From: Pseudoxanthomonas indica
GTDB lineage: Bacteria > Pseudomonadota > Gammaproteobacteria > Xanthomonadales > Xanthomonadaceae
NCBI RefSeq assembly: GCF_900167565.1
Contig: NZ_FUZV01000001.1
Location: 1,054,001-1,118,000 of the forward strand
Length of the DNA stretch: 64,000 bases
Reading direction: 5' to 3'
Shown piece by piece: positions 10,275 through 42,787 of the stretch (positions are counted from its first letter, which is position 1; each line of letters starts with the position of its first letter). The position numbers and the translations under genes are program-made. The notes below the pieces were generated by a model. The model was not told the DNA's origin. It did no database searches and worked only from the letters and a program-made list of their open reading frames with translations.

Positions 10275-10348
10275 TGGAGCGGGTGATGGGAATCGAACCC
10301 ACGCTAGCAGCTTGGGAAGCTGCAGTTCTACCATTGAACTACACCCGC
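10275..10348 (-). tRNA. tRNA-Gly, anticodon CCC
   Basis: The minus strand gives a full 74-base cloverleaf. The acceptor GCGGGTG pairs with CACCCGC followed by T and an encoded CCA. The anticodon arm is GCAGC-TTCCCAA-GCTGC, with CCC at positions 34-36, and the T arm contains GGTTCGATTCC. It reads GGG glycine codons. It stands alone behind its own promoter-like sequence. Confidence 0.97.
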
Positions 10349-38626: not shown

Positions 38627-40133
38627 TTCCTTGTCCTCATGCCGGGCGGATAGGGTCATAAGCCATCTCCAGCAGCCCGCCGCCGTGGCCAGCGCCCTGT
38701 TCCCGTTGTTTGCCGACCTGCATGACCGTCCGGTATTGGTGGTCGGCGGCGGCGCCGTGGCCGAGCGCAAGTTGGCCGCCTTGCTGGAAGCCGGCGCGCT
38801 GCCGCGCATCCAGGCGCTGGCCTTGTCGCCAGCCATCCAGGCCTGGCTGGATGAGGGACGGGTGACGTGGATCGGTCCACGCTTCCATCCGCGTGCGCTG
38901 GAGGATGTCTGGCTGGTGGTGGCCGCCACCGACGACCCGCAGGTCAACCAGGAGGTGGCGGCGGCGGCGCAGCAGCGCCGGGTGTTCGCCAATATCGTCG
39001 ACCATGCCGAATTGTCGAGCGTGCACGTGCCGGCGCGGGTGCAGCGGGGTGACTTGCAGATCGCGATCTCCAGCGGCGGCGGCGCACCGATGGTCGCGCG
39101 TCATTTGCGTCGGCAACTGGAGACCTTCTTCGATGATTCGTGGGGCGCCTTGACGGCGCTGTTCGCGCGTCATCGCCAGGCGATTCGTGCGCGTTATCCG
39201 GACACGGCGCAGCGGCGGCGTTTTTTCGAGCAGGTGCTGCAGGGTGACCTGCCGCGCCTGCTGCGCCAACGCCAGCAGGCGCGCGCGGAACAGTGGTTGG
39301 AGCAGGCGCTGCGTGACTCGCCTGCGCGCAGCGTCGGTTCGGTGGTGCTGGTCGGCGCCGGTCCGGGTGATCCGGGTTTGCTGACCCTGCATGCCTTGCG
39401 CGCGATCAATGAAGCGGACGTGATCCTGCATGACCGCCTGGTCAGCGACGAGGTGCTGCAACTCGCGCGCCGTGATGCGCAGCGCATCGAGGTCGGCAAG
39501 TCCGCCGGGCACCACAGTGTGCGCCAGGAGGCCATCCACGAGCTGATGCTGGAACACGCGCGCGCAGGCCGGCGCGTGGTGCGCCTGAAAGGCGGCGATC
39601 CGTTTGTCTTCGGTCGTGGCGGTGAAGAGCTGCAGGTGCTGCGCGCGCACGGCATCGACTTTGAAGTCATCCCCGGCATCACCGCCGCGGTGGCCTGCGC
39701 CGCCTATGCCGGAATTCCGCTTACGCACCGCGACCATGCGCAATCGCTGCGGCTGGTCACTGCGCATTGCAAGGATTCGCTGGACACGCTGGACTGGCCC
39801 GCGCTGGCACAGTCGCGCCAGACCCTGGCTTTCTACATGGGCGTGGCCGGGTTGGACACCATCCAGGCCCGCATGGTCGCCGAAGGCTGTCCGCCTTCCA
39901 CGCCGTTTGCGTTGATAGAGAATGGATCGCGCGCCAACCAGCGGGTGCTGGCCGGTCGCCTGGAGCAGTTGGCGGTGGCCGCGCGTGAACATGGGATTTG
40001 CTCACCTGCTTTGCTGATCATCGGCGAGGTGGCCGGGTTGGCCGTGGACCTGCACTGGTTCGGCGCGCCTCCACTGTCCGCGGACCAGGCGCGTGCCCTG
40101 CCGGTCCACACCTCCTTGCCGCACGCTGCATAA
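38604..40133 (+). CDS. cysG: Multifunctional siroheme synthase
   Basis: Converts uroporphyrinogen III to siroheme for CysI. The 509-residue protein joins a precorrin-2 dehydrogenase/ferrochelatase half (about 35-240; [22 protein letters not shown] and [11 protein letters not shown]) to a SAM-dependent uroporphyrinogen methyltransferase half (about 245-490). The latter has [33 protein letters not shown] and [10 protein letters not shown]. The first 27 residues have no match in the family, which normally begins near LFPLFADL; a GTG at 38685 would remove them. The upstream ATG is kept as the default. Confidence 0.93.
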
Positions 40134-40158
40134 CGACATCCACCTGGAGATTTCCCGC

Positions 40159-41115
40159 ATGGCCATTTACGACAGCATCCTCGACACCATTGGCCGCACC
40201 CCGGTCGTCAGGCTCAATCGCGTTGCGCCGAAGCATGTGCAGCTTTATGCCAAGGTGGAATCGTTCAATCCGGGCGGCTCGGTCAAGGATCGCCTGGCGT
40301 TGGCCATCATCCTGGATGCAGAGAACAAGGGACTGCTGAAGCCGGGCGACACAATCATCGAAGCCACCTCCGGCAACACCGGCGTGGCGCTGGCGATGGT
40401 GGCGGCCGCGCGCGGTTACAAGTTCGTGGCGGTGATGGTGGAGACGTTCTCCATCGAGCGCCGCAAGTTGATGCGCGCCTACGGGGCCAAGGTGATCCTG
40501 ACGCCGGCGGCCGAGCGTGGCAGCGGAATGGTGCGACGTGCCGAGGAGTTGGCCAAGCAACATGGCTGGTTCCTGGCGCGACAGTTCGCCAATCCAGCCA
40601 ACCCGGCTTATCACCGGCAGACTACGGCCGCGGAAATCCTGCGCGATTTTGCCGGGCTGCGGCTGGATCACTTCGTTACCGGTTGGGGCACGGGCGGTAC
40701 GTTGACGGGTGTTGGCGAGGTGTTGCGGGTGGCGCGTCCGGAAGTACGCATCACCGCCAGTGAGCCGGCCGGTGCATCGTTGTTGCTGGGCAAGGAATGG
40801 GCGCCGCACAAGATTCAGGGCTGGACGCCGGATTTCGTTCCGGAAGTTCTGAACCGCGAAGTGGCCGATGAGGTGCTGCCGGTGGATGACGTGACCGCCA
40901 TTGCCGTGTCGCGTCGCCTGGCAGCGGAGGAAGGCATCTTCGTGGGCATTTCCGCAGGTGCCACGGTGGCCGCTGCTTTGCAGGTGGCGGAGAAGGCCAG
41001 CGAAGGCAGCGTCATCCTGGCGGTGCTGCCGGATACCGGTGAGCGTTACTTCTCCACGCCATTGTTCGAGGGCGTGAATGAGGGTTCTGATGACGAGTGG
41101 CTGACGTCGTTGTAA
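40159..41115 (+). CDS. cysK: Cysteine synthase (O-acetylserine sulfhydrylase)
   Basis: Makes cysteine from O-acetylserine and sulfide, the last step of sulfate assimilation. The 318-residue PLP enzyme has Lys43 in NPGGSVKDR as the cofactor lysine, the substrate loop TSGNTG, the GTGGTLTG phosphate-binding loop and FVGISAGA. ATG 40159 is chosen for the family start MAIYDSILDTIGRTP. It lies 25 bases after cysG and ends at a strong terminator, followed by the repeat island. Confidence 0.96.
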   Translation: MAIYDSILDTIGRTPVVRLNRVAPKHVQLYAKVESFNPGGSVKDRLALAIILDAENKGLLKPGDTIIEATSGNTGVALAMVAAARGYKFVAVMVETFSIERRKLMRAYGAKVILTPAAERGSGMVRRAEELAKQHGWFLARQFANPANPAYHRQTTAAEILRDFAGLRLDHFVTGWGTGGTLTGVGEVLRVARPEVRITASEPAGASLLLGKEWAPHKIQGWTPDFVPEVLNREVADEVLPVDDVTAIAVSRRLAAEEGIFVGISAGATVAAALQVAEKASEGSVILAVLPDTGERYFSTPLFEGVNEGSDDEWLTSL

Positions 41116-41137: not shown

Positions 41138-41170
41138 AAAGCCAGCGGAATACATTCGCTGGCTTTTTTC
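41138..41170 (+). terminator. Terminator after cysK
   Basis: AAAGCCAGCG (41138-41147) pairs with CGCTGGCTTT (41157-41166) and is followed by more T, 22 bases past the stop codon. AAT and ATT inside the loop can extend the stem. Confidence 0.92.
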
Positions 41171-41290
41171 TTGGCTGCGATGTCCGGTTGCGGATCTTCG
41201 TTCCTGCCTCGCCTCGCCTTCACGGTTCGGTGGCGCCGCTAGGCATGCTTGCCTTCTGAGCTCGCTCGCTGGCTGCTTCTTGCTTGCCGC

Positions 41291-41380
41291 TTTCCGCTTT
41301 CCGCTTTCCGCTTGCTGTTTGCTGTTTGCTGTTTGCTGTTTGCTGTTTGCAGTTTGCAGTTTGCTGTTTGCTGTTTGCTG
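41291..41380. repeat. 7-bp tandem repeat array (TTTGCTG/TTTCCGC)
   Basis: About 13 units of 7 bp: three TTTCCGC, one shortened unit, four TTTGCTG, two TTTGCAG and three TTTGCTG. Neighbouring units are identical within blocks, pointing to recent slippage. The period is not a multiple of three, so it is not a coding repeat. Confidence 0.9.
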
Positions 41381-41410: not shown

Positions 41411-41617
41411 GTTTGCTTGGAGCGGTGCGCTCGCGGGTCCCGGGGCGTCGCGCCCGCCGCGCTGCGCGCCGCGGGTCCGTGCCGCCGGAGCTAAGTTTCG
41501 GATGGCACATCCTGTGCCAGCCGAAACCGTCGCGCATCCGTGCGCGACGCCCTGCGGGTTTACGCTCCGCCAGCACCGCTCCGAGCGGGACCCGCAAGCG
41601 CACCGCTCCAAGCAAAC
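41411..41617 (+). repeat. 207-bp nested palindromic element, copy 1
   Basis: The element has 31-base inverted ends matching at 30 of 31 positions (GTTTGCTTGGAG... at 41411 and its complement ending at 41617). Inside are a 15-base-arm hairpin (41495-41509 with 41513-41527, one mismatch), a 9-base-arm hairpin (41528-41536 with 41541-41549, TCCG loop) and a 6-bp hairpin near 41576-41588. Bases 41471-41569 are identical to copy 2 in inverted orientation. No flanking target duplication is obvious. It may be a miniature mobile element, a REPIN-like structure or a structured RNA. Confidence 0.85.
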
Positions 41618-41743
41618 TGGAAACTTTGTCGGCATGCACAGAAACTGCAGGTCCTTGGCCGCCCAGCCTTCCAGCCTTGTGGCTTGCTGGTCTCCTGACC
41701 TTCTGCCTTGCTGCCACGCCGATCTATCGGTCTCCTGCACTAC

Positions 41744-41904
41744 TAGACCCGCTAGCCCCGATAGCCCCGATAGCCCTGATAGACCTGCTAGCCCCGATAG
41801 CCCCCGATAGCCCTGATAGCCTTCCTAGCCCTGATAGCCCTGATAGCCCTGCTGACCCTGATATCCCTGCTAAACCTGCTGGGCCCGATGGCCCGATGGC
41901 CCGA
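41744..41904. repeat. 9-bp tandem repeat array (GATAGCCCT type)
   Basis: About 18 imperfect units with consensus TAGCCCTGA or TAGCCCCGA, ending in two 8-base units TGGCCCGA. The period keeps one reading frame: the plus strand meets TAG and TGA at once, while one minus-strand frame is open and reads as Gly-Leu-Ser and Gly-Ala-Ile repeats. Confidence 0.85.
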
Positions 41905-41905
41905 T

Positions 41906-41946
41906 TGTTGGTGGTTGGTGGTTGGTGGTTGGTGGTCGGTGGTCCG
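41906..41946. repeat. 7-bp tandem repeat array (TTGGTGG)
   Basis: Four perfect TTGGTGG units are followed by two degenerate ones (TCGGTGG, TCCGTTG). It directly abuts the 9-bp array. The strand is purine/pyrimidine skewed and rich in G and T. Confidence 0.85.
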
Positions 41947-41999
41947 TTGTTCTGCTGGACTGCTGGTCTGATGTCGGCAATCACGCGGTTGTCAAGGAA

Positions 42000-42206
42000 G
42001 GTTGCTTGGAGTGGTGCGCGCTTGGGTGCCGCTCGGAGCGGTGTCGCCGGAGCGTAAACCCGCAGGGCGTCGCGCACGGATGCGCGACGGTTTCGGCTGG
42101 CACAGGATGTGCCATCCGAAACTTAGCTCCGGCGGCACGGACCCGCAGCGCGCAGCGCGGAGGGCGCGAAGTCCCGGCACCCAAGCGCGCGCCACTCCAA
42201 GCAGCC
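42000..42206 (-). repeat. 207-bp nested palindromic element, copy 2 (inverted)
   Basis: Same length and hairpin order as copy 1, but on the other strand. The 31-base ends match each other at 29 of 31 positions, and both mismatches would be G-U pairs in RNA. The 99-base core (42048-42146) is identical to copy 1. The arms differ from copy 1 at several positions where both sides changed together, so pairing is kept. Confidence 0.85.
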
Positions 42207-42268: not shown

Positions 42269-42655
42269 TCAAGCTTCGTAGAGCTCCAAAGGAAGGTCAT
42301 CGGGATCCGCGAAAAAGGTAAAGCGCTTGCCCGTGTATTCGTCGATGCGGATTGGCTCGCAAGCGACCCCATTGTGTTCCAGATGCGCGACGGCCAGGTC
42401 GACATCGTCAACGCGGAAGGCAAGATGCCGAAGCCCTGCTGCTTCCGGTCTGGATACACGCGATGGCGGCGAGGGAAAGGAGAACAATTCGATCTGCGTG
42501 GTGTCATCCACGCGCAAGTCGAGCTTCCAGGAATCGCGCGCTTCGCGATATACCTCGGCGATCACTTGCAGGCCCAGGACTTCCACATAGAAGCGTTTCG
42601 AGCGCGCGTAGTCGGACGCGATGATGGCGACGTGGTGCAGGCCGGATATTTTCAT
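42269..42655 (-). CDS. VOC (glyoxalase I-like) family protein, YaeR/GloA2 type
   Basis: A 128-residue vicinal-oxygen-chelate protein with two beta-alpha-beta-beta-beta modules. It closely follows E. coli YaeR (GloA2): GLHHVAIIASDY at the N-terminus, EVYREARDSWKLDL, IELFSFPSPP, SRPEAAGLRHLAF and KRFTFFADPDDLPLELYE. Metal ligands are expected at the early His, the central Glu/His and the final Glu, as in the family. The E. coli enzyme is linked to detoxification of dicarbonyls or bacillithiol-type conjugates only loosely, so the substrate is left open. ATG 42655 is the family start. Confidence 0.9.
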   Translation of the reverse strand: MKISGLHHVAIIASDYARSKRFYVEVLGLQVIAEVYREARDSWKLDLRVDDTTQIELFSFPSPPSRVSRPEAAGLRHLAFRVDDVDLAVAHLEHNGVACEPIRIDEYTGKRFTFFADPDDLPLELYEA

Positions 42656-42787
42656 GCCGTCAGCCTGCGCCACAGGGAGCGGGGAATCAACTCGCGGCCG
42701 CGAACTGGCGAACCGCGGTCGACACGCGGGTGTATGGCGCAACTATCCCTGATGCGCCGCAAGCGATGCGATCGCGCGCAGTGATGT

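Follow-up and report, generated by a model that had tools for sequence, protein, structure and literature searches.

The described systems closest to the sequences analysed here are dispersed bacterial repeats and RNAs bound by the regulators CsrA and RsmA. As far as the accessible parts of the published accounts go, REPIN/BIME systems with RAYT comprise GTAG REPs of 20–40 bp, the SMAG repeats of Stenotrophomonas among them, and TIR families are longer, partly self-complementary repeats that occur as dimers in S. maltophilia and are located around TIRYT genes (PMC3733652). The R families of P. fluorescens, in the available portion of that report, are intergenic repeats with a bias towards tail-to-tail genes (PMC2718517). 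On the RNA side, the available part of a review on CsrA lists CAGGA(U/A/C)G as the motif that recurs in CsrB, ANGGAN as the hexaloop form of RsmE and RUACARGGAUGU as the SELEX sequence, and states that SELEX for CsrA favoured short stems (PMC7652899). RsmW is described in the accessible text as an sRNA that binds RsmA and is cut out of a 3' UTR, and RsmU of Xanthomonas likewise belongs to a 3' UTR (PMC4950607, PMC7694677).

The window, i.e., the whole stretch of 64,000 nucleotides that was analysed, belongs to Pseudoxanthomonas indica (host assembly of 3.96 Mb in 3 contigs) and carries two palindromic elements between convergent genes (Table 1), the nearest relatives of the cysK-type gene being found in Pseudoxanthomonas. 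A preliminary description of this locus had claimed two inverted copies of equal length, an identical inverted core with hairpins in it, and pairing arms that had changed jointly, and the recomputation bore all of this out. Both copies are exactly 207 bp long and differ at 22 of the 207 positions; the 99-base core identical in inverted orientation occupies 41471–41569 in copy 1; the arms pair at 30 of 31 positions in copy 1 and at 29 of 31 in copy 2, and the core hairpins of both copies are present in the predicted folds. At arm positions 2, 13, 21, 23, 24 and 29 the copies differ from each other with both arms altered. The other arm mismatches (position 22 in copy 1, positions 3 and 16 in copy 2) are without exception C.A when the element is read in its own orientation, and hence G.U on the opposite strand. 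Because of the folding z-scores of −10.7, −10.4 and −12.2, with no equally stable sequence among 200 shuffles, and of the copy-to-copy match at E = 8e-76, chance is excluded as the source of the fold and of the mutual likeness.

Table 1. Features of the window around the two palindromic elements.
Feature	Position	Strand	Basis or remark
cysK-type PLP-dependent enzyme gene, directed at copy 1	40093..41115	+	PF00291, E 9e-72
Terminator-like hairpin and T run, between cysK-type gene and copy 1	41140..41169	+	by eye
Element copy 1 (207 bp)	41411..41617	+	R1 core match 41472-41585, 106.4 bits
Copy 1 left 31-base arm, outermost stem	41411..41441	+	pairs 30/31 with right arm
Copy 1 inner hairpin 1, GGA loop on - strand	41495..41527	-	predicted folds; helix 2 of A1
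Copy 1 inner hairpin 2, GGA loop on - strand	41528..41549	-	predicted folds
Copy 1 right 31-base arm	41587..41617	+	recomputed pairing
Inter-copy spacer, 382 bp, short tandem repeats	41618..41999	.	sequence
Element copy 2 (207 bp), inverted	42000..42206	-	R1 core match 42032-42145, 110.4 bits
Copy 2 right arm (element orientation)	42000..42030	-	recomputed pairing
Copy 2 inner hairpin 2, GGA loop on + strand	42068..42089	+	predicted folds
Copy 2 inner hairpin 1, GGA loop on + strand	42090..42122	+	predicted folds
Copy 2 left arm (element orientation)	42176..42206	-	29/31 paired
Glyoxalase-superfamily gene, convergent, directed at copy 2	42269..42742	-	PF00903, E 1e-26

Short tandem repeats lie around and between the copies (41280–41380, 41744–41903 and 41903–41945), and (AACAGC)n-like tracts are found at the 3' end of the element in many relatives. 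Elsewhere in the window Rfam identifies an SAH riboswitch and a tRNA, at 2779–2855 and 10278–10348, and at another locus of the host genome (L004, 2530–2602) there is a match to a SymR-like antitoxin RNA of 47.5 bits, below the gathering score of 61.

The two copies almost certainly represent a structured repeat family that is not recognised by Rfam 15. At gathering score the Rfam scan of the window and two further loci gave no family at an element, in keeping with the earlier remark that no named family with this layout was known, and no earlier description of the hairpin-repeat family was found in the literature, our coverage of which mostly lacks subscription journals. The proposal of a structured palindromic family with co-varying arms and many copies in relatives is supported, and matches across the family, order and class samples exclude that the pair in the window stands alone. 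As a DNA query, copy 1 matched 35 of 61 genomes, the host included, seven of which (G033, G036, G042, G047, G048, G057 and G058) showed only short, GC-rich, chance-like matches; a typical relative used as the query matched 36 of the 38 genomes of the genus. From an alignment of 76 distinct cores taken from 41 fetched loci (A1) a covariance model of 115 positions (R1) was built. Of 149 genomes in the host-family sample it matched 82, representing 38 of 54 genera; the order sample gave 30 of 121 genomes, eight of them members of the host family, and the class sample 14 of 274, namely the host itself, one family member and 12 genomes from 12 other families.

R1 scored just the top candidates of each genome, so that its copy numbers are lower bounds. 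Matches, some of them partial, were obtained in 11 of 20 named genomes: Lysobacter sp. yr284 (at least 84), L. enzymogenes (at least 58), Luteimonas cucumeris (at least 54), Lysobacter sp. Root916 (at least 28), Pseudoxanthomonas sp. CF125 (at least 24), P. helianthi (at least 21), Pseudoxanthomonas sp. PXM03 (at least 9), Dokdonella fugitiva and Vulcaniibacterium thermophilum (at least 5 each), Xanthomonas euvesicatoria (at least 3) and X. arboricola (at least 1); the nine others, including two Stenotrophomonas and two Xanthomonas, gave no R1 match. The host genome has at least five elements, which are the pair in the window, a second inverted pair and a single element. A set of 80 cysK-flanking loci from named genomes gave a single R1 match, which belongs to Lysobacter sp. 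yr284. At 6 of 12 loci matched by R1 outside the order, a perfect hairpin of at least 9 pairs lies upstream, compared with 24 of 480 random stretches; this hairpin is absent from R1 and thus lends partial support to the matches beyond the order. A strict pattern of the 5' hairpin was found in 4 of the 274 genomes of the class sample and did not occur in the host genome.

In its own orientation, the typical element starts with a 5' hairpin of the form CTTTGC-loop-GCAAAG, often of 11–15 pairs, which is followed by a purine-rich stretch ending in CACACCCC, a short GC hairpin and a long outer stem, and then by two inner hairpins that have TCC loops and, after them, by CCCT(G)CGGG and GGGGCC. The core comprises about 115 bp (119 alignment columns), and with the 5' hairpin the element reaches about 200–250 bp. 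In a census of 175 distinct elements from 94 loci, from which L189, L193, L194 and L212 were excluded as lying inside larger loci, 167 elements had at least two TCC-loop hairpins and 122 had a 5' hairpin bearing AAAGAA. The copies in the window are without the 5' hairpin, and their outermost stem is lengthened to 31 bp. Because most of the fetched relatives carry a separate 5' hairpin instead, these arms are not the defining part of the element; they have the appearance of an outermost CCCC/GGGG stem that has been lengthened locally. A palindrome of the type CAGCC...GGCTG, often GACCAGCC...GGCTGTTG, is located within or beside the 5' hairpin at L164, L174, L175, L188, L196 and L203, and in Lysobacter sp. 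Root916 (L331) the two-hairpin core is duplicated in tandem with a spacing of about 99 bp.

The 108 clusters of elements consist of 63 inverted pairs (40 '+-' and 23 '-+'), 42 single elements and 3 other arrangements, many of the loci having been chosen for pairs. Where no pair-based choice was made, the paired fraction was 4/5 in the host genome, 10/10 in G013, 6/9 in PXM03 and 2/3 in X. euvesicatoria, and at the low end 2/24 in CF125 and 0/21 in P. helianthi; inverted pairs thus occur in many species and mostly single elements in some. The two arms of a pair have a median identity of 0.70 over the 63 pairs, of which 25 combine a type A with a type B arm, one is half typed and 37 are untypable by the tags used; no pair with two arms of the same type was found among the 63. 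One orthologous site shows both orders, A-B in 7 genomes and B-A in 4, together with one ambiguous, one single-arm and one empty case, which means that the unit flips in evolution. At L164, L167, L169 and L176 (near 8 kb) and at L347–L360 both subtypes are kept and their order flips, L169 being without one arm. Two pairs about 5 kb apart were rejected as separate cases, being the same orthologous region in four relatives. With gene orientation taken from a home-made gene finder, which left 29 of the 108 clusters without an orientation count (15 'edge' and 14 'far'), the 79 clusters with near neighbours on either side comprise 27 between convergent genes and 9 between divergent ones, the corresponding figures for 213 other gaps being 31 and 32. 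Single elements between co-directional genes run in the same direction as the genes in 14 of 18 cases, so that the GGA strand is antisense and the non-GGA strand sense.

The pairing itself is very probably under selection. RNAalifold predicts 31 core pairs on A1, with double compensatory changes in 22 of them, and the covariation score of 0.385 (0.125 in shuffles) was equalled in none of 500 shuffles and fell to at most 0.103 when the partners were slid; the exception is the measure 'further pair types', which 43 of 500 shuffles reached. The order of the changes is informative as well. In 28 element pairs at least 95% identical, 37 one-sided changes of base pairs stand against 5 two-sided ones, and with falling identity the one-sided to two-sided counts become 66:24 (90–95%), 85:90 (85–90%), 103:157 (80–85%), 158:378 (70–80%) and 233:668 (60–70%), the two-sided to one-sided ratio of the core climbing from 0.14 to 2.87; sequence pairs are disjoint within bins and not between them, and related sequences are non-independent. 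The same ratios were 0.00, 0.25, 0.32, 0.68, 1.45 and 3.12 in a 250-nt set from the genus and 0.00, 0.63, 0.75, 1.83, 1.80 and 2.90 in the RNase P control, a set of 30 rows in which three are empty and one has 165 bases (contig ends) and of which 27 entered the change-order test. Changes begin one-sided and are compensated afterwards, in a course like that of RNase P. The preliminary description had left a fork between selection on pairing and correction of one arm by the other; at the level of the family the order of changes favours the former, and instant correction is dropped as the main cause, because close relatives show mainly one-sided differences and double changes become more frequent as divergence grows, while instant copying would give double changes from the outset.

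Which strand folds is less sharply defined. G-U pairs make up 1.4% or 3.0% of the standard pairs, depending on the strand, compared with 10.1% for RNase P from this bacterial order, and among the one-sided non-Watson-Crick states of the core in its own orientation, taken over the six bins, 72 of 682 are G.U, 250 A.C and 360 other, as opposed to 174 G.U of 220 in RNase P. In 50 near pairs the one-sided intermediates in element orientation comprised 46 A.C, 11 G.U and 37 others, a skew that taken alone would mark the GGA strand as the RNA. A call of the strand by the type of wobble was considered and abandoned, since transitions at unpaired sites are similarly skewed (49 at 990 purine sites and 22 at 1434 pyrimidine sites) and the skew is absent in inverted pairs (A.C to G.U 52 vs 54, and 24 vs 11 in single elements). 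Folded as RNA, the GGA strand has the advantage in stability in 118 of 168 distinct elements, with a mean difference of 1.5 kcal/mol; the corresponding control with RNase P gave 26 of 26 and 14 kcal/mol. In our reading, both strands are constrained, with a leaning to the GGA strand. A run-through transcript of an inverted pair contains both forms, which would produce such a two-strand constraint, and a role at the DNA level would yield the same.

The loops point to a possible ligand. The TCC/GGA loop of hairpin 1 is invariant in 76 of 76 cores, and 317 of the 338 GGA-loop hairpins with stems of at least 5 read CANGGANG (186) or CAGGANG (131), the background being 452 and 551, respectively, among all 13,496 GGA of the same loci, elements included. 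From these loop sequences we tentatively suggest that the GGA-form RNA of the elements may bind CsrA/RsmA, a reading that we favour at somewhat less than even chances. The element would then be an RNA that recruits or titrates CsrA/RsmA: on the GGA strand each inner hairpin would present CANGGANG or CAGGANG, loop forms bound by these proteins, and with two motif-bearing hairpins each element could accommodate a single CsrA dimer. Read-through into an inverted pair from either neighbouring gene would give a transcript with one GGA-form element, which may recruit the protein locally in 3' UTRs, or the many copies together may form a diffuse CsrA/RsmA sponge. A genome-wide, distributed titration of CsrA/RsmA by dozens of intergenic repeats, with the free level tied to read-through at 3' ends, is an unlikely extension of this scheme. 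The GGAU and AUCC loops of one transcript are complementary, so a pair could switch itself off by kissing.

In Rfam scans by E-value, scattered weak families appeared besides RsmW, and RsmW alone recurred at elements. It touches an element in five of the 15 loci scanned, always on the GGA strand and below threshold (27–33 bits, with a maximum of 33.1, vs the gathering score of 52). Membership in RsmW (RF02809) was rejected, the best score staying below the cut-off and the alignments not running hairpin to hairpin. None of the 61 genomes had an RsmW match over the cut-off; RsmW was also missing from 13 loci of the genus at E up to 1 and from the copies of the window, and the 4 weak matches in the 61 genomes at genome scale did not include an element. 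The likeness to RsmW may indicate a possible mode of action rather than membership. Further points in favour of CsrA/RsmA binding are the lean in RNA stability, the three arm mismatches of the window, which are all G.U on the GGA strand, and the excess of elements between convergent genes; against it stand the scarcity of G-U pairs, the antisense GGA strand at 14 of 18 single elements between co-directional genes, the terminator-like hairpin ahead of copy 1 and stems longer than those favoured by SELEX.

A serious rival to CsrA/RsmA binding is a role at the DNA level, because G-U pairs are rare and the wobble is nearly strand-symmetric; selection would then act on hairpins in single-stranded DNA or in cruciforms, which may serve, e.g., to bind proteins, as the substrate of a copying machinery or as nucleoid or supercoiling elements, and the folding of the RNA would be incidental. 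Nucleoid or supercoiling roles have been proposed for REP repeats. We consider this somewhat unlikely. Pairs that are nearly all Watson-Crick and a wobble that is symmetric in inverted pairs are what is expected if both strands must fold, and the intergenic position, the many copies, the frequent inverted dimers and the reversal of arm order between species at one orthologous site agree with it; the near-invariant asymmetric loops, in contrast, fit a known RNA-protein site, RNA stability favours one strand, and no partner protein was found at the 30 Y1 loci described below or among the 25 commonest domain families of the neighbours. Template-directed correction, in which strand switching at hairpins keeps the arms identical without selection, could account for six double changes against three mismatches in the window and for the scarcity of G.U intermediates. 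It appears very improbable in view of the one-sided excess at 95–100% identity (37 to 5), with double changes leading only at a distance, and of stems that vary around loops that stay fixed. About equally improbable is a 3'-end element that shields or terminates the transcripts of convergent genes without CsrA: it would explain the excess between such genes and would leave the fixed loops unexplained, and the terminator scan found no site at either copy, its one site lying upstream of copy 1 (1.7 in shuffles). The hairpin listed in Table 1 at that side has a 9-base loop, which is beyond the limits of the scan, and the scan result does not include it.

Element sites are gained and lost among relatives, and a mobile origin of the family is likely. 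None of the 15 further Pseudoxanthomonas loci in which a glyoxalase gene follows the cysK-type gene has an element in the gap between the two. A second site was filled in 13 of 30 loci; three had about 700 bp without an element, 11 gave no match for the second gene, and three had gaps of about 48, 22 and 5 bp without an element, the last being the host genome itself. There, a second palindrome, AGCCCCTCTCCC...GGGAGAGGGG, flanks many filled sites (L347–L360) and stands alone at the empty L352, which makes insertion and deletion look alike when the site is read for a target-site duplication. This patchy presence, together with 11 matching genomes among the 20 named ones, would suit a miniature mobile element of the MITE or foldback kind, with a transposase that acts in trans and reads the fold. 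Terminal inverted repeats, a criterion for MITEs, are present as the 31-bp arms in the window, and the ends of other copies differ. We hold this reading as a miniature mobile element to be improbable: the arms of a pair are mostly divergent; the plasmid search and the phage search, with one element query each, gave no match; and no transposase or mobile-element domain occurs among the 25 commonest of the 122 domain families in 80 neighbouring proteins, these being the part scanned of 119 candidate ORFs. The 'large REPIN-like' unit of the preliminary description holds for the inverted-dimer layout and fails for the linkage to a transposase. None of 30 Y1_Tnp (PF01797) loci, the best match per genome in 30 genomes drawn from 93 matches in 35 of 38 genomes, carried an element within 1.5 kb, so the link to RAYT/TIRYT was rejected, and genome G017 has 21 element matches and no Y1_Tnp match. 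Inverted short repeats, GTGGGAGCGACGTAAGTCGCGA or GTAGGAGCGACG..., were observed in the cysK-glyoxalase gap of relatives (L067, L069, L070, L072, L075–L080, L083 and others); they resemble SMAG-type REPINs.

The present data add a large structured repeat family that extends, within one bacterial class, over several orders and families and went unrecognised in the Rfam scans made here. Dispersed palindromic repeats, the role of which has long been open, become testable as binding sites of a global RNA regulator; if CsrA/RsmA binding is true, it would suggest why such repeats form inverted pairs at gene ends.

Compared with the published repeats, the core of about 115 bp is much longer than REPs of 20–40 bp, inverted dimers being common to both (PMC3733652, in its accessible part). 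GTAG is not in the core consensus and appears only in some variants of the 5' hairpin. As the same source describes them, TIR families resemble the elements by length, partial self-complementarity and dimers, a comparison made by description, and they surround TIRYT genes, unlike the elements, beside which no Y1-type gene was seen in 30 loci (PMC3733652). The R families and the RU/ERIC-type units are, in the available portions of the reports, likewise intergenic and 50–350 bp long, several of them with inverted repeats (PMC2718517, PMC2759123), and the copy numbers of R families vary sharply among three strains of one species (PMC2718517). By description, the hairpin repeats are set apart from the R families by their occurrence in several orders and by covariation. 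With the CsrB/RsmZ class, RsmW and RsmU, as far as the available text describes them, the elements share GGA in hairpin loops (PMC4950607, PMC7694677), on stems that are longer than those of SELEX-favoured CsrA ligands; these RNAs are the products of single genes, whereas the elements are members of a family of repeats that can reach dozens of copies.
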